Below are positions 21,205 to 38,130 of a stretch of DNA of 38,846 nucleotides, one piece after another. The notes beneath the pieces were generated by a model. It made no database searches, was not told the origin of the DNA, and saw only the letters and a program-made list of their open reading frames with translations. The position numbers and the translations under genes were made by a program. Source of the stretch: Alsobacter soli. GTDB taxonomy: Bacteria; Pseudomonadota; Alphaproteobacteria; Rhizobiales; Beijerinckiaceae. The DNA lies in contig CAMCXA010000020.1 in the NCBI GenBank assembly GCA_945883115.1, forward strand, positions 1-38,846, in the 5' to 3' direction. Numbering within the stretch: position 1 is the first letter of the stretch; every line of letters begins with the position of its first letter.

Positions 21205-22849
21205 GGATGGCTCCTCTGAAGCGGTCAATACCGACACGGCGATAGGTATCGATGAAGCGCTCATCCGGTGACCGCTCGGCAAGGTAGATGTCGACGATCC
21301 GTTCCAGCGTATCGGGGATGTCGTCTGCGCCTACACCGGGCCCGAGCCGTTCGCCGATTGCTGCTGTTTCGGTGGCATCACCGCCGAGTGTGATCTGGTA
21401 GCTCTCGGCTCCGGATTTTTCGAGCCCGAGAATGCCGATATTGCCGACATGATGATGGCCGCAGGCATTGATGCAGCCCGAAATCTTGATGCCCAACTCG
21501 CCAATGGTGCGCTGGCGCTCGGGTGATGCGAAGCGCTGCGCGATGGCTTGGGCAATCGGGATCGAACGCGCCGTTGCCAGCGAGCAATAATCCATTCCCG
21601 GGCAAGCGATGATATCGGAGATGAGTCCAATATTTGCGGTCGCAAGCTCATGGGCCGCAAGGCGCTGCCAGAGTTCGAACAGATCGTCTTTTTTGACATT
21701 CGGGAGCACGATGTTCTGGTGATGGGTGACGCGCAATTCACTGAAACTGAAAGCGTCAGCCGCATCGGCGAGAGCGCGCATCTGGTCGGATGTCGCATCG
21801 CCCGGTGCGCCGCCAATGGGCTTCAAGGAGACGGTGACGGCTGAATAGCCCGGTTGCTTGTGGCCGAAGGTATTGACCGCGACCCATTGCGCAAATTCGG
21901 CATTCGCTGCGCTGTGGCGCGCGAGAAAGGCACTTTCATCCGGCAGGCGTTCATAAGCGGGTGGCATGAAAGCCTGTTCGATACGGCCGATTTCGGCAGA
22001 GTCTGGCGCAACCGCATCCCGATTGGTCGCAGTGAATTCGGCCTCGACTGCCGCTCGCATGGGTTCGATGCCGATTTCATGGACGAGAATTTTGACGCGG
22101 GCCTTGTATTTGTTATCGCGCCGCCCTTCCGCGTTGTAGACCCGCATGAGGGCTTCGAGATAGGGCAGCAAATCCGCTTTGGGGAGGAAATCGCGGATGG
22201 TTTTGCCGATCATGGGCGTCCGCCCGAGGCCACCGCCGACACTGATCTCGTAACCGGTTTCTCCACTCTGGGGATGGCGGAGAATGCGAATGCCGATGTC
22301 ATGCGCCTTGATCGCGGCGCGGTCATGCTGGGCGCCGGTGATCGCAATCTTGAATTTGCGCGGGAGAAAGCTGAATTCAGGATGCAGGCTCGACCATTGC
22401 CGCATGAGTTCAGCCGTCGGGCGGGGATCTTCGACTTCGTCCGCCGCAACACCGGCAAAATGGTCGGCAGTGACATTGCGAATGCAATTTCCGGACGTCT
22501 GGATTGCGTGCATGTCGACATCTGCCAGGGCTTGCAGCATGTCGGGAACATCAGCGAGTTTCGGCCAGTTGAACTGGATGTTCTGGCGCGTCGTGAAGTG
22601 CCCGTAACCCTTGTCCCAGCGATCGCCGATCATGGCCAATTGGCGCATTTGAATCGAAGACAAGGTGCCATAGGGGATGGCAATGCGGAGCATATAGGCG
22701 TGCAACTGGAGATAGAGGCCGTTCATCAGCCGCAAGGGTTTGAATTCATCCTCGGTGAGCGAGCCATCCAGCCTGCGGGCAACTTGGGCACGGAATTCCG
22801 CGACACGTTCTTGAACAAAGCTGCGGTCGAATTCGTCATAGTGATACAT
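21188..22849 (-). CDS. cysI: Siroheme nitrite/sulfite reductase (hemoprotein subunit)
   Basis: Reduces sulfite to sulfide (or nitrite to ammonia) with six electrons at coupled siroheme and 4Fe-4S centres. It is 553 residues from the ATG at 22849. The frame is open 174 bases further up, but that part lies over DUF2849 and is not family-like. Cluster ligands are Cys416 and Cys422 (CPGMDYC) and Cys459 and Cys463 (CINAC). Siroheme-contact regions include GYGHFTTRQNIQFNW and TSGNCIRNVTADH. Neighbours (cysG, DUF934, DUF2849) favour sulfite over nitrite. There is no CysJ flavoprotein in the operon; the ferredoxin at 23170 is the likely electron donor. The start overlaps DUF2849 by 14 bases. Confidence 0.93.
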   Translation of the reverse strand: MYHYDEFDRSFVQERVAEFRAQVARRLDGSLTEDEFKPLRLMNGLYLQLHAYMLRIAIPYGTLSSIQMRQLAMIGDRWDKGYGHFTTRQNIQFNWPKLADVPDMLQALADVDMHAIQTSGNCIRNVTADHFAGVAADEVEDPRPTAELMRQWSSLHPEFSFLPRKFKIAITGAQHDRAAIKAHDIGIRILRHPQSGETGYEISVGGGLGRTPMIGKTIRDFLPKADLLPYLEALMRVYNAEGRRDNKYKARVKILVHEIGIEPMRAAVEAEFTATNRDAVAPDSAEIGRIEQAFMPPAYERLPDESAFLARHSAANAEFAQWVAVNTFGHKQPGYSAVTVSLKPIGGAPGDATSDQMRALADAADAFSFSELRVTHHQNIVLPNVKKDDLFELWQRLAAHELATANIGLISDIIACPGMDYCSLATARSIPIAQAIAQRFASPERQRTIGELGIKISGCINACGHHHVGNIGILGLEKSGAESYQITLGGDATETAAIGERLGPGVGADDIPDTLERIVDIYLAERSPDERFIDTYRRVGIDRFRGAIHALDS

Positions 22850-23168
22850 TGCGTGCTCCGCGTTCCGCTTGTTTGCCGAGGTCGGTGCGAATGCTTGGCC
22901 CGAGCGTCCGCATTTTTTCGCGATAATGAATGGGCTCGGGAATTCCGTCGGCACCAACCGCCACCTCGACGAGATAAGGATCGACGATTTCATTGTTGGC
23001 CAGCGCCTTTGCGGCCACTTCAAGCAGCGCCCCGGCGTCTGCTGCCGTTATTGCAATGCGGGCATCCGCATGATGACGAACCCAGCCCGAGGCACTTGCA
23101 AAAATGACATCGCCGTCGATCAAGTCATTGGCGATCAGAATGGACGGGAAAGGTGGGGCTTTTGCCAT
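22836..23168 (-). CDS. DUF2849 protein of the sulfite reductase operon
   Basis: A 110-residue protein of the DUF2849 family, common in alphaproteobacteria directly before cysI. It has a compact pattern: LIANDLIDGDVIFASASGWV, then an Ala-rich helix (ADAGALLEVAAKALANNEIV), then DPYLVEVAV and a basic end. No catalytic or metal motif is visible. It begins one base after the ferredoxin stop and overlaps the reductase start, so it is translated within one unit. The function is unknown; a role in reductase assembly or regulation is only inference from position. Confidence 0.85.
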   Translation of the reverse strand: MAKAPPFPSILIANDLIDGDVIFASASGWVRHHADARIAITAADAGALLEVAAKALANNEIVDPYLVEVAVGADGIPEPIHYREKMRTLGPSIRTDLGKQAERGARNVSL

Positions 23169-23169
23169 T

Positions 23170-23481
23170 TTATGCTTCCGGAATTGTCAGGCTCAGGCCG
23201 TCAAGATCATCCGACCAGATGATCTGACAGGCGAGGCGGGAACCGCGATGGAGGAGGGGCAATTGATCGAGGCGGTCGATTTCCTCGTCGCGGGCAGGGT
23301 GCAGACGGTCCCGCCATTCAGGGGCAATGACCACGTGACAGCTCCCGCAATCGCATGAACCACCGCATATTCCCTCGATTCCGACTTTGTAGTCGCGAAG
23401 AATTTCCATCACGCGCCAACCTTCGACGGTTTCCAGCGTATGTTTCGTTCCTGCTCGGTCGGTGACGTTCAAAAAGGGCAT
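23170..23481 (-). CDS. 2Fe-2S ferredoxin
   Basis: A 103-residue adrenodoxin-type ferredoxin. Cluster ligands are Cys39, Cys45 and Cys48 (CGGSCDCGSC, spacing C-x5-C-x2-C) and Cys85 in LACQI. An extra cysteine, Cys43, sits inside the loop. The acidic segment DEEIDRLDQL is typical of partner-binding surfaces. It is the first gene of the operon leading through DUF2849, cysI and DUF934 to cysG, with only one base between it and DUF2849. This makes it the probable electron donor to the siroheme reductase; the ferredoxin reductase would be encoded elsewhere. A consensus-like promoter lies 45-73 bases upstream. Confidence 0.9.
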   Translation of the reverse strand: MPFLNVTDRAGTKHTLETVEGWRVMEILRDYKVGIEGICGGSCDCGSCHVVIAPEWRDRLHPARDEEIDRLDQLPLLHRGSRLACQIIWSDDLDGLSLTIPEA

Positions 23482-23525
23482 GGTGTAGCATTGTCCGATA
23501 GCGATTGGTCTTTTCGATTAAACGA

Positions 23526-23554
23526 ATGATACAGGCTTTTAATTTATTTGACAA
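23526..23554 (-). promoter_or_regulatory. Promoter of the ferredoxin-cysI-cysG operon
   Basis: On the minus strand, TTGTCA (23554-23549), 17-base spacer, TATCAT (23531-23526): close to the vegetative consensus at ideal spacing. The start codon at 23481 is about 40 bases beyond the expected transcription start. Confidence 0.6.
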
Positions 23555-23577
23555 ATAAAATTGGAAATTTATATAAA
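23548..23577 (+). promoter_or_regulatory. Divergent promoter-like sequence facing the metZ remnant
   Basis: TTGACA at 23548-23553, 18-base spacer, TATAAA at 23572-23577. Its -35 overlaps the -35 of the opposite promoter within the palindrome ATTTGACAAAT. In such AT-rich DNA chance occurrence is possible. Confidence 0.4.
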
Positions 23578-23625
23578 GTACATATTTTATATGTTTATAT
23601 TTGATCCACTGTCTTTGCAACGTCG

Positions 23626-24156
23626 ATGCGGCAACGGCTTTTGCTGCTGGGTATCGATGCCCATATCAAGACGTTGCTGAGGCAGACCGGACCGGCGCTG
23701 TCGCCTTTCAATGCGTGGGTTTTGTTGAAAGGGTTGGAGACATTACCTTTGCGGGTCGAGCGACAGACGCGCAGTGCCGCCACACTTGCAGATTTTCTTG
23801 CCGGGCGCGACGAATTTTCCCGAGTGATCTATTGTGAACGTGCGGATCACCCTCAGGCGGATATCATCAAGCGGCAAATGTCGGGCGGCTCCACGCTGAT
23901 TGCATTTGAACTCAAGGGCGGAAAAGCTGCCGCCTTCAAAATGATGAACGCGTTGGAATTGATCCGGATCTCGAACAATCTCGGGGATGCCAAGAGTTTG
24001 ATCACGCATCCGGCGACTACAACGCATCAGCGTTTTACCCCTGAAGAGCGCGCTGAAATGGACATTGGCGACGGGCTGGTGCGTCTCTCGGTCGGGTTGG
24101 AGCATCCCGATGATTTGATCGCAGATCTCAGACAGGCCCTTTCGGGCCTGTCATAG
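23626..24156 (+). pseudogene. metZ: C-terminal remnant of O-succinylhomoserine sulfhydrylase-like PLP enzyme
   Basis: A 176-residue open frame that matches only the last ~165 residues of MetZ / Cys-Met metabolism enzymes (usual length about 400). Recognisable segments are RQTGPALSPFNAWVLLKGLE, MSGGSTLIAFELKGG, RISNNLGDAKSLITHPATTT and DGLVRLSVGLEHPDDLIADL. The N-terminal two fifths or more, including the cofactor-binding region and the PLP-binding lysine, are absent, and an in-frame stop lies at 23602-23604. The first residues (MRQRLLLLGIDAH) are not family-like. Full enzymes make homocysteine from activated homoserine and sulfide. The remnant sits beside the sulfite-reduction operon but cannot be active alone. 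The surviving frame has no internal stop, so the truncation may be recent. Confidence 0.8.
24131..24152. terminator. Hairpin at the metZ remnant 3' end
   Basis: GACAGGCCC (24131-24139), loop TTTC, GGGCCTGTC (24144-24152): a perfect 9-bp stem over the last codons, between convergent genes. The T-tract is weak (GTTTTG follows 9 bases later), so termination is probable but not certain. Confidence 0.5.
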
Positions 24157-26711: not shown

Positions 26712-26800
26712 TCTTCAGCGGAAGCTGTAGCGGTTAATAAATTTTTTTTCCAGTTTTTGCGTGACTGACCGAATTTTTGTTCGATGGGGGGCATTTTAGG

Positions 26801-28144
26801 ATGAACCTAACTCCAGAAAGCCGAATCAACGCGCTGATTGCCGGCCTCGACAGAATTGATTCGTTCGAGATTTTCGGACGGGTTGCAGGCATTCGCGGGC
26901 TTCTGATCGAGATCGTCGGCCCGCTTGAATTGATGGAAATCGGGGGGCGTGTCCGCATCGAAACCGGTGCTGGCAAGTTTGTCATGGCCGAGATTATCGG
27001 TGTCACACCGGAATATGCCCTTGCAATGCCATTCGGCAATGTTGACGGGCTGAGGCGCGGAATGCGCGCGCTGGTGACAGATCGGCCATCGGGTGTCTTT
27101 CCTGATCATTCATGGCTCGGGCGTGTTCTGAACGGGTTGGGTGAGCCAATTGACTCAGGCGGGGCATTGGGGGCTGGGGTAAACTTCATGCCTTTCAGGG
27201 CCGATCCGCCACCGGCCCATTCGCGGCGCCGTCTTGGTCCGCCATTCCAGATGGGCGTTCGCGTGCTCGATTCTTTCCTGACCTGCTGCAAAGGGCAGCG
27301 CATGGGGATCTTTGCCGGTTCCGGTGTCGGGAAATCGGTTTTGCTGTCAATGCTCGCGCGAAACGCTGCTTCCGATGTGGCGGTGATTGGATTAATCGGG
27401 GAACGAGGCCGTGAGGTCCAGGAGTTTTTACAGGAAGATCTGGGCGAGGCCGGCCTTGCGCGGTCGGTCGTTATAGTAGCGACCTCCGATGAACCTGCTC
27501 TTATGCGTAGGCAGGCGGCTTATCTGACGCTTTCAGTGGCCGAGTATTTCAGGGATCAGGGCCTCAATGTCCTGTGTATGATGGACAGCGTTACCCGCTT
27601 TGCGATGGCGCAACGTGAAATCGGGCTTGCGGCGGGTGAGCCACCAACAACAAAGGGTTATACGCCAACCGTTTTTACGGAGCTTCCCCGACTGTTGGAA
27701 CGGGCGGGCCCCGGCATCGATGAAGGGACGATCACAGGGCTTTTTACGGTTCTTGTCGATGGCGATGATCATAATGAACCGATCGCGGATGCGGTAAGAG
27801 GCATTCTGGATGGCCATATTGTCATGCAGCGGGCGATAGCTGCGCGAGGTCGGTATCCTGCTGTTAATGTTTTGCAGTCAATATCCCGTTCCATGCCAAG
27901 ATCCTGTGATCCGGAATATTGGCCGAGTATTCAACGTGCAAGGTCGATTTTATCGACCTATGCCGACATGGAGGAGTTGATCCGGTTGGGCGCTTACAGG
28001 GCAGGGTCGTCGGCAGAAGTTGATGAAGCCATCAAACTTTATCCGTTGCTCGATGATTTTCTTCGCCAAGGTAAGGAAGAGTCAACTTCAATGAGCGATA
28101 CTTATTCGAGACTGGCAGAGATCGTTGGCGTTTCTGCAACATGA
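26801..28144 (+). CDS. fliI: Flagellum-specific ATPase FliI
   Basis: Hexameric ATPase of the flagellar type III export apparatus, 447 residues. Walker A is [17 protein letters not shown] (about 171-187), followed by [20 protein letters not shown], Walker B-type [14 protein letters not shown] and [20 protein letters not shown], all typical of FliI/SctN. I chose the ATG at 26801, which begins family-like sequence and has a G-run (26785-26791) upstream; the frame is open from a TTG at 26777. FliJ follows 50 bases later. The protein looks complete, although the export gate subunit FlhA and the MS-ring protein FliF encoded at 29767-32384 are disrupted. Confidence 0.95.
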
Positions 28145-28194
28145 CAACGGACAAGAGCAAGCCATTATCGGGTTTGCGGAACTAGAGAGTGAGC

Positions 28195-28602
28195 ATGAAG
28201 TCGCGTGATACATTACTGCGCTTGAAGCGCTTTCAGGTCGACGAGAAGCGGCGTAAATTGTCGCAGATCGAAACGATGGTGGCCGAATTTGAACGAATGG
28301 CAACGGAGCTTGATCGCGAAATTGCCAGTGAAGAAGCTCGTGCCGGCATAGCGGATCGTACCCATTTTGCCTATCCGACCTATGCGAGAGCTGCTTTGCA
28401 ACGTCGCGATAATCTGATCCAGTCTGCTGACGAGATGCGCGGGCAACTTGAGGCTGCGCGGCTGGAGTTGGAAGAGGCGTTTGAAGACTTGAAGAAATTC
28501 GAGATTCTTGATGATCGCGAGCAGCTCAAAGAGCGGGTTGCCGAAGCAGTTCGCGAGCAATCGGAAATGGACCGGATTGGTCTCCGGATGGCACGCGCGT
28601 GA
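28195..28602 (+). CDS. fliJ: Flagellar export protein FliJ
   Basis: A 135-residue coiled-coil protein that links FliI to FlhA in the export apparatus. The entire sequence is heptad-rich and charged (KRFQVDEKRRKLSQIETMVA, EFERMATELDREIASEEARA, AARLELEEAFEDLKKFEIL), with no catalytic motif, as expected for FliJ. The assignment rests on this pattern, size and position directly after fliI. The start is the ATG at 28195 (MKSRDTLLRLKRF); a GTG six bases earlier is an alternative. Its partner surface on FlhA is the cytosolic domain preserved in the fusion gene at 29767-31620. Confidence 0.85.
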   Translation: MKSRDTLLRLKRFQVDEKRRKLSQIETMVAEFERMATELDREIASEEARAGIADRTHFAYPTYARAALQRRDNLIQSADEMRGQLEAARLELEEAFEDLKKFEILDDREQLKERVAEAVREQSEMDRIGLRMARA

Positions 28603-28804: not shown

Positions 28805-29752
28805 ATGAAGCGAGCACTTGATTTTGTCTGGCCCTTGATAGGCGTTGCTGCCGTCCTTTTATCCGGATGGCTGCTTTTTAATGAATTGAAGAGCCTGTCT
28901 GCGGTCGATGTGCTGAATAGTCTTGCGGCTATTCCGTTGCATCGTTGGGCGCTCGCCGTTGGCGCGACGCTGGTGGCCTATGGTGCCCTTGCCTGGTATG
29001 ACCGGATCGCACTGCTGCATTTGGGCAAACCGCTCGGCTGGGGCTTTATTTCGCTCGTTTCATTTACGACCTATGCGTTGTCTCATAATATCGGTGCTTC
29101 CGTTATCTCGGGCGCCGCTGTCCGGTACAGGGCCTATTCGACCAAGGGGTTGAATGCAGTCGAAATCGGCATTCTGGTGGCATTGTGCTCCTTCACCTTT
29201 GGTCTTGGCACAATCATGCTTGGCGGCTTTGTCCTGATCGGTGAACCGGAACTGGTCACCCGGTTGTTTGACATCCCGGAAACATCAGGGCGAATCGCGG
29301 GTTTTGGCCTTTTGATGCTTGTCGGGCTTTATGTCCTTGGCTCGGTAATGCGTTTCCGCCCGATGCGGATTGGACGATATGAACTGATATATCCCCGACC
29401 GATGATCGTTTTGCGTCAATTGTTTGCCGCCCCCATCGAATTGCTTGGTGCCGCGGGCATTATTTATTTCGCTTTGCCGGAGGCAGGTAATCCAGGCTTC
29501 TTTGTTGTGGCCGGCGTATTTCTCGGGTCATTTTCCGCCGCGCTTCTGTCAAACGCACCCGGTGGTTTGGGTGTTCTCGAATTTGTGTTTCTGAAAGCGA
29601 TGCCTGATGTCTCTGCCTCGGATGTCATTGCGGCGCTCCTCGTTTTTCGCCTGCTGTATCTTTTGATTCCACTTTTGTTTGCATGTGTCGTCGTGATTGT
29701 TTTTGAACGGCAAAAATTGCTGCAACTCCTGAAGCGAGATCAGATAAGCTGA
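28805..29752 (+). CDS. YbhN/MprF-N-terminal-type membrane protein (UPF0104)
   Basis: A 315-residue integral membrane protein of the lysylphosphatidylglycerol-synthase transmembrane-region family, about eight membrane segments (FVWPLIGVAAVLLSGWLLF at about 8-26, then further segments near 45-65, 80-100, 120-150, 165-185, 225-245, 250-270 and 280-305). Typical family motifs are YALSHNIGASVISGAAVRYR (about 93-112) and LLSNAPGGLGVLEFVFLKAM (about 248-267). In MprF this part flips lipids; standalone members are of unsettled function. It has no synthase domain and no link to flagella. It is convergent with the flagellar gene at 29767, 14 bases away, without a clear terminator. Confidence 0.85.
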   Translation: MKRALDFVWPLIGVAAVLLSGWLLFNELKSLSAVDVLNSLAAIPLHRWALAVGATLVAYGALAWYDRIALLHLGKPLGWGFISLVSFTTYALSHNIGASVISGAAVRYRAYSTKGLNAVEIGILVALCSFTFGLGTIMLGGFVLIGEPELVTRLFDIPETSGRIAGFGLLMLVGLYVLGSVMRFRPMRIGRYELIYPRPMIVLRQLFAAPIELLGAAGIIYFALPEAGNPGFFVVAGVFLGSFSAALLSNAPGGLGVLEFVFLKAMPDVSASDVIAALLVFRLLYLLIPLLFACVVVIVFERQKLLQLLKRDQIS

Positions 29753-29766
29753 TCACCATTGACAGA

Positions 29767-31620
29767 TCATAGACTTCCCACAGTTTTTAATCGGACGCGG
29801 GTATGAATTTCAGCTTGTGATAAGACGGGCGTCTCGCGACGGAAGCGTTCGACGATGGAGCGAATAAACGGCCGGGCAAAAGCGGATGTGACAAGCACCG
29901 GCATTTCTCCCTGGCGTGCGGCTTCCTCGAATTTTTCCCGGATTTGCGTTGCGAATTCGGTTAATTTAGAGGGCTGCATCGCAAGGTGACGGTCGTCGCC
30001 TTGTCCGACGATCGATTCGGCAAAAGCGGTTTCCCACTGCGGCGATAGGGTGATAATTGGAAGCTGCCCCGCGGGCGTTGTGTATTGGCCGCATAATTGC
30101 CGTGCGAGGCGCTGGCGAACCATTTCAATAATTTCGCGGGTGCTTTTCGTTGAATTTACCGCATCCGATATTCCCTCAAGGATGGTGCCGAGATCGCGGA
30201 TCGATACACGCTCGTTGAGAAGTCCCTGCAGTACACGCTGGACGCCAGTGGCACTGATCTGGCTTGGCACCATATCCTTGACCAACTCCGAGTGATCTTT
30301 GGGCAGGTCGCGGATTAGCTTCTGGACGTCGGCATAGCTGAGGAGTTCGGCAACATTGCTCTTGATGACTTCGGTGATGTGCGTTGCGATCACTGTGGCC
30401 GCATCAACGACAGTATAGCCGAGCATCTGCGCCTCTTCGCGGAGCGATGAGTCAATCCACGTTGCCGGAAGACCAAAGGTGGGTTCAAGAACGTGTTGAC
30501 CGGGCAGACGAACCTGAGCACCGGATGGATCCATAGCCATGAGTTGTCCGGGGTAGACATCTCCTTGTCCTGCCTCAACCTCCTTCACTTTGATAATATA
30601 ATTGTTCGATTGAAGCATAACATTATCAAGAATTCGCACTGGAGGCATGACGAACCCAAGTTCACTGGCCAATGTGCGTCGAAGTGCTTTGATTTGTTCT
30701 GTCAGTTTATCGGAGCCGGTGCCACTGTTCACTAACGGCATCAAAGCATAGCCAACCTCTATTTTCAGATCGTCCATTTTTAGCGAGTCAGTAATCGGCA
30801 CTTCATCGGTCATCATGCCATCGGGAGATGTTTCAGCCGAAGGTGACTTTTCGTCGATTGCATCGCCCAAAACCTCCTTGTGGTTTCGATCCAAATGCCA
30901 GTATATTTCTTGGTTCCCCGCCACAAGGCCACCGATTTGATCCAGCGGATTTGTCATGAGTTGCTGCATTTCCGGTTCGTTATTCGCCATTTTATCGGAT
31001 CGGCCAGAACGTCCACCTCCCAGAAGCGCACGCATGAGTGGGCGGCCGATCACGAATGTGACGATCAACGAGATGAAGGCGAGTATTCCCAGTTGGCTCA
31101 ACCGGTTTAGGTCTAGTCTGCTCGGATCATACCAAGGTGCTTCGGCGGTTTCGGGAATGACCTCCGGTGCTTCAGCAAACCGTAAATTCGCAACTTCGAC
31201 CTGGTCACCTCTTTTGGCATCAAAACCGATGCTGGACTTTACAACAGCGATAATTCTCTCAAGTTCTGCTTGCTCGCGTGGTTGATAAGTTACCTGTCCC
31301 TCGGCATTTCGAGTATAGGTTCCATCAACCAACACAGCGACCGAAAGGCGCTTGACGCGACCACCCTCAATCATTTCGGTGCGCGTCGTCTTTGAAATTT
31401 CATAATTGATTGTTTCCTCGGATTTAGTCGAGGCGTCCCTTTGGTTCGTGTTAGTTGGTTGAGCGCCGGGAAGTTGTCGCGAAGCGGTGACCTGACCGTC
31501 AAGAACCTCCGTAGTTGTTTGATCTTCGTTCCTGTTTTGGGTTGATCGTACGACACGTGTTTCCGGATCAAACGTTTCGGAAGTTTGCTGGATTTTGTTA
31601 TTATCCATTTCTGCCGCAAC
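29767..31620 (-). pseudogene. FliF C-terminal half fused in frame to FlhA cytosolic domain
   Basis: One open frame of 613 codons from the ATG at 31608, and open a little further upstream. Residues 1-200 are FliF: KIQQTSETFDPETRVVRSTQ, then VKRLSVAVLVDGTYTR, SSIGFDAKRGDQVEVANLRF and the second membrane helix (about 173-196). Residues 200-275 are an unassigned linker. Residues 276-613 are the FlhA cytosolic domain: VGYALMPLVNSG, ELGFVMPPVRILDN, FGLPATWIDSSL, GYTVVDAATVIATHITEVIK, VSIRDLGTILEGI and LSQAEIHTRVRLKTVGSL. Missing are the FliF C-terminal tail that binds FliG and the ~350-residue FlhA membrane domain. The join lies between about 30786 and 31011. A frameshift near 31621 separates this frame from the fliF start. 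It could be a deletion pseudogene, an assembly join or a functional chimera; I favour the first. Confidence 0.85.
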
Positions 31621-32384
31621 CTGGCGCGAGCTCGTCCCAGTCCAACGACACTTGCCACGATGCTTTCTACCTGCTCCCGAAGGCGTTTTTCAAAATTCAA
31701 TTGCTTTTCATCAAACATGACGGAAAGGCCGTCGGCGCCACTTGTGCCATCTGCCAATAGGCGTCCCTGTTCGTCGACAATCGATACATTTTCGGACTTC
31801 AATCCTTCAACGGCCGAGGCAACCAAGCGGCGAATCGCAACAATTTGCCCGGCAGAAAGCTCACCACGCGTCTTTAATACAATTGATGCTCGGGGCGGTT
31901 GTTTATCACGCTCAAAAATCCGCCGCTCGGGCAGAACAAGGTGAACGCGCGCGGCTTGAACATTGCCGATTGTTTTAATCGAGCGGGCCAACTCGCCCTC
32001 CAAGGCACGAAGCTGGTTGATGTTTTGAACAAAACTGGTTGCTGAAAAAGTATCGGATTTGTCGAAAATCTCGTAGCCAACCACACCCGAGGTTGGAACG
32101 CCCTTCGACGCCAAATCAAGTCTCAGTCGTGGCACTTCACTCTTTTGCACGAGAATTGTCCGACCCTCGTCACGCAACTCATATTTTATATTTTGGGCGT
32201 CAAGTTCAGTAATGATCGCAGATGAGTCTTCCGGAGCAAGATCGATGTAAAGGACGGACAGCGTCGGTTGAGACGCCTGAAACATGATAAAGCCGAAAAA
32301 TGACAACAGGGAGATAGCAACCAATGCCAACACAGCAAGTCGGACGATGCCGAATTTGGCCATTTGTTCCATAATACTGTTCAC
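31371..32384 (-). pseudogene. fliF: FliF (flagellar MS-ring protein) N-terminal part, frameshifted
   Basis: FliF forms the membrane MS ring that houses the export gate. The frame opens at the GTG at 32384 (MNSIMEQMAKFG), which has GGGAGA upstream; the open frame extends to 32408 but that start lacks support. The first membrane helix is VRLAVLALVAISLLSFFGF. Ring-building motifs follow: IITELDAQNIKYELRDEG, VPTSGVVGYEIFDKSDTF and VQAARVHLVLPER. Homology holds to VVGLGRARA at about 31625. After that the frame reads non-family sequence until 31371, while the expected continuation (VAAEMDNNKIQQTSETF) is in the next frame. One G appears to be missing around 31621. This may be a real mutation or a sequencing error. 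Confidence 0.85.
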
Positions 32385-32488
32385 GTTCAAAAATCTCCCG
32401 CTCACCAAAAGACGTAACGTCAGTGGGTATGAAGCTAGGCAATATTTGCCGAATTATGGTTATCAAATGGTTAACATAAAAAGCTTAG

Positions 32489-32547: not shown

Positions 32548-32823
32548 TTACTGGCGGTATTGCTGGATGCGAGTGGTTCGCAGTCCGGCGAGGCCGTGCT
32601 CATTTATGGAGGACTGCCAAGCGAGAAACTCTTCGACGGTCAAAGCATAACGCGTGCAAGCTTCATCAAGGCTCAGAAGGCCACCACGGACAGCGGCGAC
32701 AACTTCTGCTTTGCGTCGAATTACCCAGCGGCGTGTGCCACTTGGTGGAAGATCTGCAACGGTCAGCGGACTTCCATCCGGGCCAATTACATATTTAACA
32801 CGCGGTCGGTATACATCGGTCAT
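32548..32823 (-). CDS. sciP: CtrA inhibitor SciP (DUF1153)
   Basis: Small helix-turn-helix protein that binds CtrA and represses CtrA-activated genes in early cell cycle. It is 91 residues from the ATG at 32823. The family signature is nearly continuous: RPRVKYVIGPDGSPLTVADL, TRRWVIRRKAEVVAAVRGGL, LSLDEACTRYALTVEEFLAW and GLAGLRTTRIQQYR. The frame is open 45 bases further up to 32868; I chose 32823 because family members begin near this point, though no ribosome site is clear for either. It lies 118 bases after flgD and before fliF in the same direction. With ctrA and chpT, three members of the CtrA circuit sit within about 8 kb. Confidence 0.93.
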   Translation of the reverse strand: MTDVYRPRVKYVIGPDGSPLTVADLPPSGTRRWVIRRKAEVVAAVRGGLLSLDEACTRYALTVEEFLAWQSSINEHGLAGLRTTRIQQYRQ

Positions 32824-32940
32824 AGCACGCTCATACATCATCAACTGACCAGTCTTCAGATTGACCATAATGGCGTCCGCTTAAAAAAGAGCTAAATTCC
32901 GCGCGTTGTTTTGAGGAAACGAAAATTTTTTCCCGGGCGG

Positions 32941-33615
32941 TTAGGATCCGTTGCCGATCGTTTTAATTCGATCCATCGGAATTCCGATTGTCCCGATCAT
33001 GACGGTCGCCGGTGATGTCGTCAGATCAACCTTGTCAACGACTCCGCTGATTGACGTCGCGATGTTAAAACTCTGATTATTCGTATCTTTTCCGGTAACA
33101 GTAATGGTGTATTTGCCTGCTGGCGCTGTTGCGTCACCGTTTGTCTTTCCATCCCAGGTAAAGTCCTGTGGACCAGCATTTACCGTCATGGTTTTGGTCG
33201 CAACGATTGATCCTGCTTCGTTTTTGATCGTAATCGTCGCAGTCCCGCCGCGTTCGGCATTGATTGACCACTTCGCGGAGTTGTTTTGCAGATATGTCGT
33301 CGCGCCCGAGGCCGATACTGTCTTGCCCACAAAGCCGAGCGCGCTCGCGACATTTGATGTCTGCGTGGTTAGAAGCAGCGAATTCAGCGTATCATTCGAT
33401 TTGATTTGCTGTTCAACCGAGGCAAATTGAACAAGTTGCGCGGTGAAGTCATTGGTGTTGAGCGGAGCTGTAGGATCCTGACTTTTGAGCTGTGTGGTCA
33501 GCAAGGTCAGAAATTGATCGAAGTTCTTGGCGATTGCCTGCCGATCGCTATTCGCTGTGTTTGCTACTGTGTTTTGGGCGGTAATTGTCGCCGTTGTCGC
33601 TGATGTTGTTGTCAT
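32941..33615 (-). CDS. flgD: Flagellar hook capping protein FlgD
   Basis: Scaffold that caps the growing hook during assembly; exported without a Sec signal. It is 224 residues. The conserved N-terminal domain is NFDQFLTLLTTQLKSQDPTA then PLNTNDFTAQLVQFASVEQQ (about 30-70). The C-terminal half is the beta-rich FlgD Ig/Tudor region: GTATITIKNEAGSIVATKTM, FTWDGKTNGDATAPAGKYTI. The leading Thr/Ala stretch is a typical disordered export signal. The ATG has AGGAGC about nine bases upstream. It follows fliK by ten bases and is probably co-transcribed with it. The sequence looks intact. Confidence 0.92.
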   Translation of the reverse strand: MTTTSATTATITAQNTVANTANSDRQAIAKNFDQFLTLLTTQLKSQDPTAPLNTNDFTAQLVQFASVEQQIKSNDTLNSLLLTTQTSNVASALGFVGKTVSASGATTYLQNNSAKWSINAERGGTATITIKNEAGSIVATKTMTVNAGPQDFTWDGKTNGDATAPAGKYTITVTGKDTNNQSFNIATSISGVVDKVDLTTSPATVMIGTIGIPMDRIKTIGNGS

Positions 33616-33625
33616 ATTTGGCTCC

Positions 33626-34909
33626 TTAGATGGTGCGGTCTAGCCGTTGGAATGAATAGGATTTCATCAAGCTTTTAGGCAGATCGGTGCTCGCGGGCGC
33701 ACAGGACGCTTCGTGCCGTGCCTGCTGTTGGGCGTGGCCATGCGAGTTGCGTTCATTCGGGTTGCTGTTCTGCTGCCCGTCTCGCGAGAGGGAGAACTGC
33801 AGCGACGCGCTATTGGATGAAAACCCCGTCTGGTCGAGTGATCTCTTCAATGTTGAAGCATCTTGCACGAGCAAAGCGAGCGTTGCGGGATTATCGGTCA
33901 TAAATTGGGCGCTGATCGAAGAGTCGGCGGCAATATCGAGCTTGATCGAGATTTCACCGAGCGATTCTGGCGAAAGGACAATTTTAATCTCGCGCGCACC
34001 TTCGAGAACGCGCATGCCAATTTCTAGCGGAAGATCATTTAGTGTGGTGGGTCGGCTAGAGGCGGGCGCCATCTGGCCGGAATCGCTTGGTAAAGAGATG
34101 GCTTTTCGAAGTTCATCAATAGCTTGCTTTGCAGGGCCCGGATCAGATGATTTAGCGAGAATGTCCGAAAAGGACTCCGTGTCTGATTGAGTTGCACTGC
34201 CATTTTCTGAGCCCGCTTCATCGGATTCTGAGTCGGAGAGCGTCTCTCCATCTGTTTTCGTGTTACCTGCGATTGGCGCGAAAGCTTTGAAGGCCGTCAA
34301 AGTTACGGGTGACGTCGGTGCGAGTTCTTTTTTCTCGTTTGCATCGGCTTCTTGTTCATTCTCGGACTGAGCGATGGTGTTCTGGGCCGCTATAGCAACA
34401 GGCATAGCTGTTAGCAGGAGTTCCGGAACAGAGATTGCTGCGCCCTGAACATTCTGATCAGTATCGCTCGCAGTGCCTTCATCATCTGGCTTTTCGAGAT
34501 TTAAATCGGGGTTTTCCGAAATTTCGCTCTGGTCCGAGGTGGAGGGTTCGATGTCTGGTTGCGGCGTGGCGATAGCAGCATTCGCCTGCCCAGCAGGATT
34601 TTGACTGGTTGGCGGGTGCGGCTGTTCTTCTTGGCTGATTGATGCCTGATCCGCAGTTTCCGCATTCAAGCCAAAGGGCGAAGCGGGCACGCTTGCTAAG
34701 GCTTGTTCCGTTATCGCCGGAACACCAAGAACTGGGGATGTCGCTGTGGTGTCACTCAACTCACTTTTTGAGACCTGTTCAATCCCGCTAACCTGTTTGA
34801 GTTCGTCGAGAAAGGAGCCGGATGTTTCGGCACGATCGGGCATTGCTTGGGACTTGGAAAGCCCGCGGTCAATTGCTGCGATAGGCAAGGGCACGGTAGT
34901 AATCGTCAT
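33626..34909 (-). CDS. fliK: Flagellar hook-length control protein FliK
   Basis: Ruler protein that sets hook length and switches export specificity. It is about 427 residues. The N-terminal two thirds are low-complexity, acidic and rich in Ser, Pro, Gln and Ala, as expected of the ruler. The C-terminal domain (about 310-400) matches the Flg_hook family: LPLEIGMRVLEGAREIKIVL, SPESLGEISIKLDIAADSSI and AQFMTDNPATLALLVQDAST. Gln-, Asn- and His-rich residues follow, typical of FliK tails. I prefer the ATG at 34909 (MTITTVPLP), which has GGAT upstream; the frame is open to a GTG at 35020 with no ribosome site. It is the first gene of the fliK-flgD unit and divergent from mnmA. Confidence 0.82.
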   Translation of the reverse strand: MTITTVPLPIAAIDRGLSKSQAMPDRAETSGSFLDELKQVSGIEQVSKSELSDTTATSPVLGVPAITEQALASVPASPFGLNAETADQASISQEEQPHPPTSQNPAGQANAAIATPQPDIEPSTSDQSEISENPDLNLEKPDDEGTASDTDQNVQGAAISVPELLLTAMPVAIAAQNTIAQSENEQEADANEKKELAPTSPVTLTAFKAFAPIAGNTKTDGETLSDSESDEAGSENGSATQSDTESFSDILAKSSDPGPAKQAIDELRKAISLPSDSGQMAPASSRPTTLNDLPLEIGMRVLEGAREIKIVLSPESLGEISIKLDIAADSSISAQFMTDNPATLALLVQDASTLKRSLDQTGFSSNSASLQFSLSRDGQQNSNPNERNSHGHAQQQARHEASCAPASTDLPKSLMKSYSFQRLDRTI

Positions 34910-35150
34910 AGTTGCATCCAATTGTACGTCGGAAACACCTAAGCAAAGAGCGCGCCATGGAAGCCCCTTTAAAAAATCAATAGAATCAATGAGGGTTCGG
35001 CTGCCGACGGCAGAGTTCACGAAAATTCATGTCTGATTTTGCCGGACGGGTGGAAAATTTTGCCTATCGTCGACCTGTGAACAAGACTCGCATCATGTGC
35101 AAAAAATCGTTAGATAAGAGAACCAACGCTAACAAACGTGATTTGGACGC

Positions 35151-36448: not shown

Positions 36449-36483
36449 CACCTCGTTCTCGACGCGGCATGGCCCCGTCGTGG

Positions 36484-36560
36484 GGCGGAGTAGCTCAGCC
36501 GGCTAGAGCAGAGGAATCATAATCCTTGTGTCGGGGGTTCGAGTCCCTCCTCCGCTACCA
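36484..36560 (+). tRNA. tRNA-Met (anticodon CAT)
   Basis: A 77-base cloverleaf with encoded CCA. The acceptor is GGCGGAG (36484-36490) with CTCCGCT (36550-36556), first pair G-U, and discriminator A. The D-arm is GCTC/GAGC. The anticodon stem GAGGA/TCCTT has loop ATCATAA with CAT at 36518-36520. The T-stem is GGGGG/CCCTC with loop TTCGAGT. The body matches alphaproteobacterial elongator tRNA-Met more than tRNA-Ile2 with a modified CAT or the initiator (which lacks the first pair). The 3' half (from 36517) overlaps the end of the serine recombinase gene on the other strand, marking it as an integration target. Confidence 0.93.
36517..36560. other. Probable attachment site: tRNA 3' half shared with recombinase gene end
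   Basis: The tRNA 3' half, read on the minus strand, encodes the last 14 residues (VVAEEGLEPPTQGL) and the stop codon (complement of 36517-36519) of the recombinase. This places one border of an inserted element at the tRNA 3' end, with the tRNA sequence regenerated intact. The other border must be beyond 38846. Confidence 0.65.
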
Positions 36561-38130
36561 CCGATACAGCGGTTTTTTGCCCGTGTTGATCCAGAAACAC
36601 TAAAGCACTGATATCTCCCGTAATTTTCAAATTTACGCGGCCCTTTTCTGGAAGGGGATGAACTTCGATCGACTTAATCAGAGATCTAAATTGCTCCGTT
36701 GCCTGGGCCTTCAATTCAGGGTCTTTTGTGAGGTGATGTTGCAGATGCTCAATCCGGTTTCTGTAGGTTTCTAAAAAATTGATTTGAGGCAGCGGGATTT
36801 TGAGGTCCGAAAATTCTGTAGGTGTTTGCCTAGTTAAATCCGCCTTTTTGACTTCAAGCTCCTTTAGGCGGCCGGTTAATGACGGCATTGGGCCGGCAAC
36901 CGTTATTGAATCGACAATTCTATCAATTTGCTGCGTGACCGTTAAAAGTGATTTTTGATGTTTTTCGACATTGTTCGCGTCATTTGCTGACAATTGTTTA
37001 ATCGTGTCATGAAAGGAATTCTCAAATTCCTGAAGCAGGCCTGGTTCTAACAGATGTTCTTTGATGCCCGTCAGAACGGCATTTTCAACGCGCTCAACCG
37101 ATATTTTCTTGTTGTTGGAGCAAGTTCCCTTCTCCCGATGCGCGCTACAACTGATCCGTCCTTCGCCGATTATCGACATCGGGCCACCGCATTCACTACA
37201 ACGAATCAACCCTGAGAATAGACGCCGGGGATTTCGCCTTCTGTTAAGTGGCAGGGATTGTTTTCGGTCGAGTCGTTGGTGAACCAAATTCCATTCTTCG
37301 TCGTTGACAATTCTTAGTTCTGGAACTTCGGCAACAACCCAATCTTTTTGAGGATTGATGCGGGGAATACGTTTTCCTGTCCGTGGATCTTTCACAAACA
37401 TTTGACGATTGTAGAGAACCTTGCCAAGATAGGCTTCGTTCCAGAGGATGCCGTCGCGGCGCGCTCTGTTTCCATTGATTGTTGAAACATTCCATTGGCC
37501 ACCGCGAGGCGACCGCACGCCAGTATTATTGAGTGATTTTGCAATTGTTCTTACCGATATGCCGGATCCGTATTTGGTAAAAATCTCGCGAATGACATCT
37601 GCTTGTTCAAGATTGATTGTACGCAAGCCAGAGTCAGGCTTTCCATCTGCACCAAAGCGGCGAACAACATCATAGCCATAGGCCAAGCCACCCGGTGAAC
37701 GTTTTGCGATGGCACGTCCCCTCTGACCCCGTCGAATTTTTTGAGCGAGATCTTTCAGAAAGAGTGCGTTCATCGTACCTTTTAGCCCAATATGAAGCTC
37801 GTTTATTTCTCCTTCTGAGATCGTTTGAATTTTTGCCTGATAAAATGATACCTGTTTGAAAATACCTGCAATATGTTCTTGATCACGCGAAATACGATCG
37901 AGTGCTTCGGCAATTACAATATCAACTAATCCATCTTTGACTTGTTTTAAAAGAGCCTGAAGTCCCGGGCGATTATCCGTCGATCCGCTAATGGCGGCGT
38001 CGGAATATGAGCCCACTATGTGATAACCAAGACGTTCAGCAAGGCGTGAACATTCGCGGACTTGATCCTCGATTGATGCTTCGCGTTGCAGATCAGAGGA
38101 GTATCTAGCGTATATAACGGCGCGCATCAT
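36517..38130 (-). CDS. Large serine recombinase (integrase)
   Basis: A 537-residue site-specific recombinase. The resolvase domain (about 3-140) starts MRAVIYARYSSDLQREASIE, with probable nucleophile Ser11, and includes LDRISRDQEHIAGIFKQV. A recombinase domain follows (about 150-280: GGLAYGYDVVRRFGADGKPD, GVRSPRGGQWNVSTINGNRA, NEAYLGKVLYNRQ). A zinc ribbon has Cys311, Cys314, Cys328 and Cys337. A coiled coil (about 380-435) is typical of this class. The C-terminus is encoded within the tRNA-Met complement. The start ATG at 38130 overlaps the upstream gene's stop (ATGA). The DNA is visibly richer in A/T-ending codons than the chromosome to its left, consistent with transfer. It probably catalyses insertion and excision of the element. 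Confidence 0.93.
   Translation of the reverse strand: MMRAVIYARYSSDLQREASIEDQVRECSRLAERLGYHIVGSYSDAAISGSTDNRPGLQALLKQVKDGLVDIVIAEALDRISRDQEHIAGIFKQVSFYQAKIQTISEGEINELHIGLKGTMNALFLKDLAQKIRRGQRGRAIAKRSPGGLAYGYDVVRRFGADGKPDSGLRTINLEQADVIREIFTKYGSGISVRTIAKSLNNTGVRSPRGGQWNVSTINGNRARRDGILWNEAYLGKVLYNRQMFVKDPRTGKRIPRINPQKDWVVAEVPELRIVNDEEWNLVHQRLDRKQSLPLNRRRNPRRLFSGLIRCSECGGPMSIIGEGRISCSAHREKGTCSNNKKISVERVENAVLTGIKEHLLEPGLLQEFENSFHDTIKQLSANDANNVEKHQKSLLTVTQQIDRIVDSITVAGPMPSLTGRLKELEVKKADLTRQTPTEFSDLKIPLPQINFLETYRNRIEHLQHHLTKDPELKAQATEQFRSLIKSIEVHPLPEKGRVNLKITGDISALVFLDQHGQKTAVSVVAEEGLEPPTQGL

Follow-up and report, generated by a model that had tools for sequence, protein, structure and literature searches.

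In the Rhizobiales, a 2019 survey of 292 genomes reported, in the parts of the paper available, both flagellar systems together in only nine genera, one of the two tending to be maintained (PMC6406911). Likewise, the available parts of an account of the Brucella flagellar set list several genes as pseudogenes while others remain (PMC8781033). In-frame joins of two flagellar proteins are also on record, as a curated family of fused FliR/FlhB proteins (NF009411) and as the engineered, ring-forming FliF-FliG fusions of two papers seen as excerpts (PMC11481574, PMC6079021). Here we describe a join of a different pair. The window, the whole stretch of DNA that was analysed, comprises 38,846 nucleotides of Alsobacter soli (GCA_945883115.1, CAMCXA010000020.1) and corresponds to contig C20 in a draft genome of 2.6 Mb (104 contigs; completeness 98.4%, contamination 0.4%). 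It carries an open frame in which the C-terminal half of FliF runs into the cytosolic domain of FlhA. We consider this chimera very probably to be the scar of a recent in-frame deletion in a disappearing flagellar gene cluster, one that the genus has lost repeatedly. Most likely the fused gene is a remnant and not a new component of the flagellum.

Such a scar is ordinary in kind. A natural FliF-FlhA fusion was not found described in the literature searched (open-licence papers, by the listed titles and starts of abstracts), and the initial annotation, made from the letters only, had likewise known of none. The loss of one of two flagella described for the Rhizobiales seems to be in progress in the window's genome and several genus-mates. 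Whereas the survey, in its available parts, maps presence and absence (PMC6406911), the window offers a half-deleted intermediate with a visible join. Unlike the window, the Brucella set shows no fliF-flhA fusion in the parts of the account that were compared (PMC8781033). The chimera also differs from the FliR/FlhB and FliF-FliG fusions, for it is single, lies below a frame shift and belongs to a system with missing parts.

The assembled sequence does contain the chimeric frame (Table 1); the length given there is counted from the first ATG, and the frame spans 640 codons from stop to stop. Residues 1-144 match the FliF C-terminal domain YscJ_FliF_C (PF08345, E 6e-34), hydropathy places the second FliF membrane helix near residues 169-190 (about 31039-31104), and residues 253-605 match positions 305-656 of the 657 positions of FHIPEP (PF00771, E 6.8e-99). 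The FlhA model TIGR01398 is covered from position 323 to 677 of 678, with the cytosolic domain complete, at a score of 376.1 against a cut-off of 772.1. The N-terminal membrane domain, which has eight helices in FlhA, is missing from the frame. The FlhA part is 59-76% identical to the FlhA of 19 relatives. On all these points the profile matches and the hydropathy agree with the initial annotation, which had seen a single frame holding the FliF C-terminal half with its second helix and the complete FlhA cytosolic domain without the FlhA membrane domain. Its description of FliF needs a correction, since the N-terminal half is also present, upstream and in another frame, and is over its residues 9-264 66-69% identical to G003, G004, G009 and G010. 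In G003, G007, G009 and G010 both pieces form a single open frame of 507-518 codons, so the fliF of the window has a one-base frame shift, and its N-terminal helix and ring-building domain are out of frame with the C-terminal part.

Compared with the FliF of G003, G009 and G010, fusion residue 232 is the last homologous position and corresponds to residue 499 of the 515-codon G003 frame. The C-terminal tail, predicted to bind FliG, thus appears to be kept except for about 16 residues at its end, and the earlier statement that it is absent holds for those residues only. From about residue 236 the chimera aligns with the end of the last FlhA membrane helix and with the linker (19 FlhA sequences of relatives were given and 18 compared, the G001 row being empty over this stretch). 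By eye, the closest FlhA across the linker is that of G047. The join stands, in frame, at the boundary between the membrane and cytosolic domains of FlhA; the membrane domain is gone save its very end, while the linker and the cytosolic domain are retained. The comparison of the linker with FliF and FlhA narrows the interval initially proposed for the join, 30786-31011, to the one in Table 1. Reuse of a short shared sequence was considered as a possible origin of the join; short-word blastn there returned nothing better than E 0.21, and DNA identity to the relatives over the fliF and flhA parts is only about 64-70%. The linker was also considered as a leftover of the deleted genes; this was rejected, as the full FlhA alignment accounts for it and tblastn gave E 0.29 or worse among the matches listed.

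The gene order of relatives tells what would have been removed. The comparison set consists of 59 relatives, among them 11 genus-mates (G001-G011), and a wider set holds 297 genomes of the order, the window's own included; the absence of a gene from a draft genome is a weak sign. In G003 the order is fliF, fliG, fliH, fliN, flbD, an opposite-strand frame and flhA. The fliN and flhA matches exceed curated cut-offs, and those of fliG (222 of 227 bits), flbD (744 of 750) and fliH (75 of 201) fall under them. Four of the 11 genus-mates (G003, G007, G009 and G010) have separate long fliF and flhA frames on one contig and the same strand, each with fliN between them; contig ends interrupt G001 and G004, inside flhA and fliF. 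By coordinates, about 5.5 kb separates the two join points in G003, G009 and G010, and this stretch is absent from the window. The window's flanks are collinear with those of the relatives that keep fliF and flhA, that is, they stand in the ancestral order and the deleted genes lie between them in relatives. The deletion proposed initially is supported by this order, although fliF and flhA are not immediate neighbours as had been supposed, with four genes and one further frame between them in G003. Not all clusters of the relatives are clean, since the fliN alignments of G009 (L038 7808-8137) and G004 (L040 10556-10867) cross one stop each, by possible decay or sequence error. The opposite-strand frame between flbD and flhA in G003 (L036 6489-7382) gives a weak match to a CBASS oligonucleotide cyclase (35.5 bits, cut-off 200).

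We propose that an ancestral cluster fliF-fliG-fliH-fliN-flbD-flhA, as in G003 and with fliF, fliN and flhA likewise placed in G007, G009 and G010, underwent a deletion of about 5.5 kb. It would have removed the last 16 or so codons of fliF, the intervening genes and the membrane half of flhA, and the remaining parts would have been joined in frame; by chance one join in three is in frame. The separate frame shift in fliF would cut the N-terminal half, including the first membrane helix, from the chimeric frame. Because of this separation, ordinary translation would not yield the full chimera, and a protein begun at the internal start would presumably lack the segment that sends FliF across the membrane. 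The same system would also be without its own FliG, FliP and FlgI in the assembly and would lack about 10.7 kb at another locus; a divergent set is still present on contig C8.

The searches of the rest of the genome bear on this last step. PF00771 occurs as one complete FlhA, on C8, and as the half in the window; for FliG_C, FliP and FlgI a single domain each was found, in every case on C8; no second N-terminal half of FlhA and no FliG, FliP or FlgI of the window's type was found in the draft assembly. An orthologue of FlbD was not found either, the G003 protein giving six matches at 50% identity or less, of which the only near-full-length one is at 36%. Two of three FliM/FliN-type domains lie on C8. 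The third, a 99-codon frame at the end of C40, was rejected as the missing fliN, with 36% identity over 58 residues to G003 FliN against 56-69% for G004, G007, G009 and G010. The search for deleted genes elsewhere in the genome did not include FliH. On contig C44 only 0.35 kb separates dksA from a fliO-like gene (20.4 bits, cut-off 22), as against 10.7 kb in G003, where the interval carries flgA, flgG, flgF, fliM and fliP; C44 then continues with flgB, flgC, fliE, fliQ and the start of fliR to the contig end. From these two loci, the flagellar system of the window appears to carry two or more large internal deletions. In other genomes, flgI matches G009:C4:18215-19120 and G002:C3:25882-26916 cross one stop each, again possible decay or sequence error.

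The C8 set gives matches for fliF, fliG, fliI, fliM, fliP, flhB, flhA, flhF, flgE, flgI, flgK and flgL, those of flhF and flgE below equivalog cut-offs. With an identity of only 29-31% between its FlhA and FliF and those of the window, this set is no duplicate. Of the intact flhA and fliF that the initial annotation had proposed to look for, a complete FlhA and a fliF match were found, both in this divergent set. The cell may well still swim using it, and the earlier phrase of a lineage losing motility goes too far.

FlhA of the C20 type (70-73% identity) was found in six of the 11 genus-mates, namely G001, G003, G004, G007, G009 and G010; in G002, G005, G006, G008 and G011 the only FlhA is 31-34% identical to the window's. 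Between sciP and the homologue of the gene at 28805-29752, the aligned ends lie about 70 bp apart in G002 and about 51 bp apart in G008, inside one contig. These emptied sites (L048 6448-7774 in G002, L049 4840-6147 in G008) are clean, the whole fliF-flhA block being gone. Neither flgD nor fliK gave a match in the examined stretches of these two genomes, and the sciP alignment of G008 contains a stop. The contigs of G005, G006 and G011 end before the site, and loss there is read from the genome-wide search alone. In two trees the losers G005, G006 and G008 group with the carrier G010 (support 98-100), the loser G011 with the carrier G004 (94-95) and the loser G002 with the carrier G007 (64-89). 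The first tree included the 28805-29752 gene, and the outgroup pair G021/G033 then fell beside G003 and G009; the second was rebuilt without it. Because G007 is placed by just two genes (first tree) or one (second tree), we count only two whole-block losses; these, on different branches (G002 and G008), are well supported by the comparisons, and the window's own deletion would be added to them. If the chimera is a relic, the loss of one of two flagella is caught half way here, and the genus presents a series of separate fliF and flhA frames, this internal deletion and a clean empty site, so that the order of gene loss could be studied within one genus. In G005 and G008 fliI is absent from its place and fliJ is retained; the orphan fliJ is without stops (L050 1551-1952 in G005, L049 3617-4018 in G008), and no C20-type FlhA was found there.

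The conservation of what remains was read from columns that are invariant in the other core genus-mates, in sets whose size differs per protein. The window changes 20 of 218 such columns in the cytosolic part of FlhA (FlhA-C; seven genomes), 24 of 260 in MnmA (six), 26 of 279 in FliI (seven) and 10 of 102 in FliJ (seven). The changes are more numerous in FliF-C (29 of 119, five genomes) and FlgD (22 of 95, five), with FliF-N at 20 of 155 (six); the FliF-C of G007 also has many (15 of 105). The window's genome, as the most diverged member, has the highest share of changes in every set. Against 19 other genomes, FlhA-C is changed in two of 99 invariant columns. Terminal branch lengths in a five-genome set are 0.14 for FlhA-C, 0.18 for MnmA, 0.22 for FliI, 0.26 for FliF-N and 0.32 for FliF-C. 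By these measures the FlhA part is conserved like a housekeeping gene, which fits a recent loss and equally fits continued use. As it shows no excess of changes, the deletion is probably young.

The whole fusion was searched against 60 genomes, the window's own and the 59 relatives, and 47 of them, own included, gave matches; a match spanning the FliF and FlhA parts in one frame was found in none of the 59 relatives, the only one being the window's. A 316-residue piece across the join, in which FliF homology occupies residues 1-112, gave matches in 224 of the 297 genomes of the order, own included. Among the matches listed, the window alone covers both sides, and the others start at query residue 95 or later. 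The same fusion, which had been suggested for a search in relatives, did not turn up in the 59 relatives or among the listed matches of the order. Six related loci came from a scan of named genomes, all metagenome-assembled (three Hyphomicrobiales, one Hyphomicrobiaceae, one Methyloligella and one Alphaproteobacteria).

Several observations weigh against the reading of the chimera as a deletion scar. No relaxation of constraint is seen in the FlhA part, as would be looked for in a relic, and the frames of fliI, fliJ, flgD and fliK are open in the window. C44 ends inside fliR, and its FlgB, FlgC, FliE and FliQ are about as close to G003 as the G001 counterparts are. The presence of FliP and FlgI does not follow that of FlhA in the genus: G007, with its fliF and flhA frames, shows one FliP and no FlgI, and in G005 and in G006 FliP and FlgI each occur twice, with no C20-type FlhA found. 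Part of this can be turned toward an artefact of assembly, in which misjoined fliF and flhA reads skipped about 5.5 kb, the frame shift is a sequence error and the organism's cluster is ordinary. The evidence is the assembled sequence of a draft in 104 contigs, contigs do break inside flhA and fliF in G001 and G004, and the FlhA part is not relaxed. As G007 illustrates, a draft may lack genes of this system, which slightly raises the odds of a misassembly. Nonetheless, the skipped genes did not turn up elsewhere in the assembly, where no other FlhA N-terminal half or FliG was found. C44 has another large gap between retained flanks, FliP and FlgI of this type were not found, and in G002 and G008 the entire block is gone from the corresponding site within a single contig. 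We therefore regard an artefact as unlikely, with a small share of the probability left to it.

The open frames and the conservation could also be taken as signs of use. In a functional chimera the second helix of FliF would anchor the FlhA cytosolic domain to the membrane or the MS ring and present it to FliI and FliJ. The in-frame join at the boundary of the FlhA domains, the strong conservation of the FlhA part and the open fliI and fliJ frames next door would suit it, as would the retention of fliJ in G005 and G008, two genomes with no fliI found in its usual position. Against it, the N-terminal half of FliF is out of frame, the fusion is seen in the window alone among the matches listed, no FliP, FlgI or FliG of the system's own was found, and any recent deletion would leave the FlhA part conserved. 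The chimeric ring, offered initially as a speculative option, is in our judgement very improbable. We give even less credence to the fuller version in which the chimera is produced, through recoding at the frame shift or because that shift is only a sequence error, and a FliF ring carrying FlhA cytosolic domains serves FliI and FliJ without the membrane domain of the gate, perhaps as a docking platform for the second flagellum. The FlhA cytosolic ring is viewed as acting only below its own membrane domain; a working chimera would overturn that view, but the evidence points elsewhere, to the deletion scar.

Table 1. Features of the fliF-flhA region and its neighbours, in window coordinates.
Feature	Position	Strand	Basis or remark
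Chimeric open frame, FliF C-terminal half and FlhA cytosolic domain	29767..31608	-	613 aa; profile matches
FlhA-derived part: end of last membrane helix, linker, complete cytosolic domain	29767..30903	-	Profile matches and alignment
Putative deletion join	30903..30913	-	FliF homology stops at residue 232, FlhA homology begins near 236
FliF-derived part, fusion residues 1-232	30913..31608	-	blastp against genus-mate FliF
Single-base frame shift within fliF, compared with genus-mates	31610..31640	-	Frame coordinates and comparison
FliF N-terminal half, other frame (open frame 31371-32408)	31617..32384	-	PF01514, E 3.6e-61
sciP (CtrA inhibitor), marks ancestral order	32548..32868	-	NF051866, above cut-off
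flgD, same system	32941..33615	-	PF03963, above cut-off
fliK-like, same system	33626..35020	-	PF02120, above cut-off
Membrane protein gene; homologue adjoins sciP in the emptied G002 and G008 loci	28805..29752	+	LPG_synthase_TM, below cut-off
fliJ, same system	28189..28602	+	PF02050, above cut-off
fliI, same system	26777..28144	+	FliI clade 3, above cut-off

Some further observations concern the surroundings. The membrane protein gene at 28805-29752 is 68-74% identical to its homologues in most genus-mates and 51% identical to those of G003 and G009, an indication that one lineage carries another version of the gene. At 23626-24156 a 176-aa frame matches a Cys/Met PLP-enzyme family at positions 220-380 of 381 only; inspection by eye of the three plus-strand frames of 22800-23700 showed no N-terminal part. 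Toward the other end of the window, 80 bases (36481-36560) are identical to G009 (L038 110-189) in surroundings about 70% identical. They lie where a gene for a large serine recombinase (36517-38130, minus strand) has its 3' end; relatives of this gene also adjoin mnmA in G003, G004 and G010.
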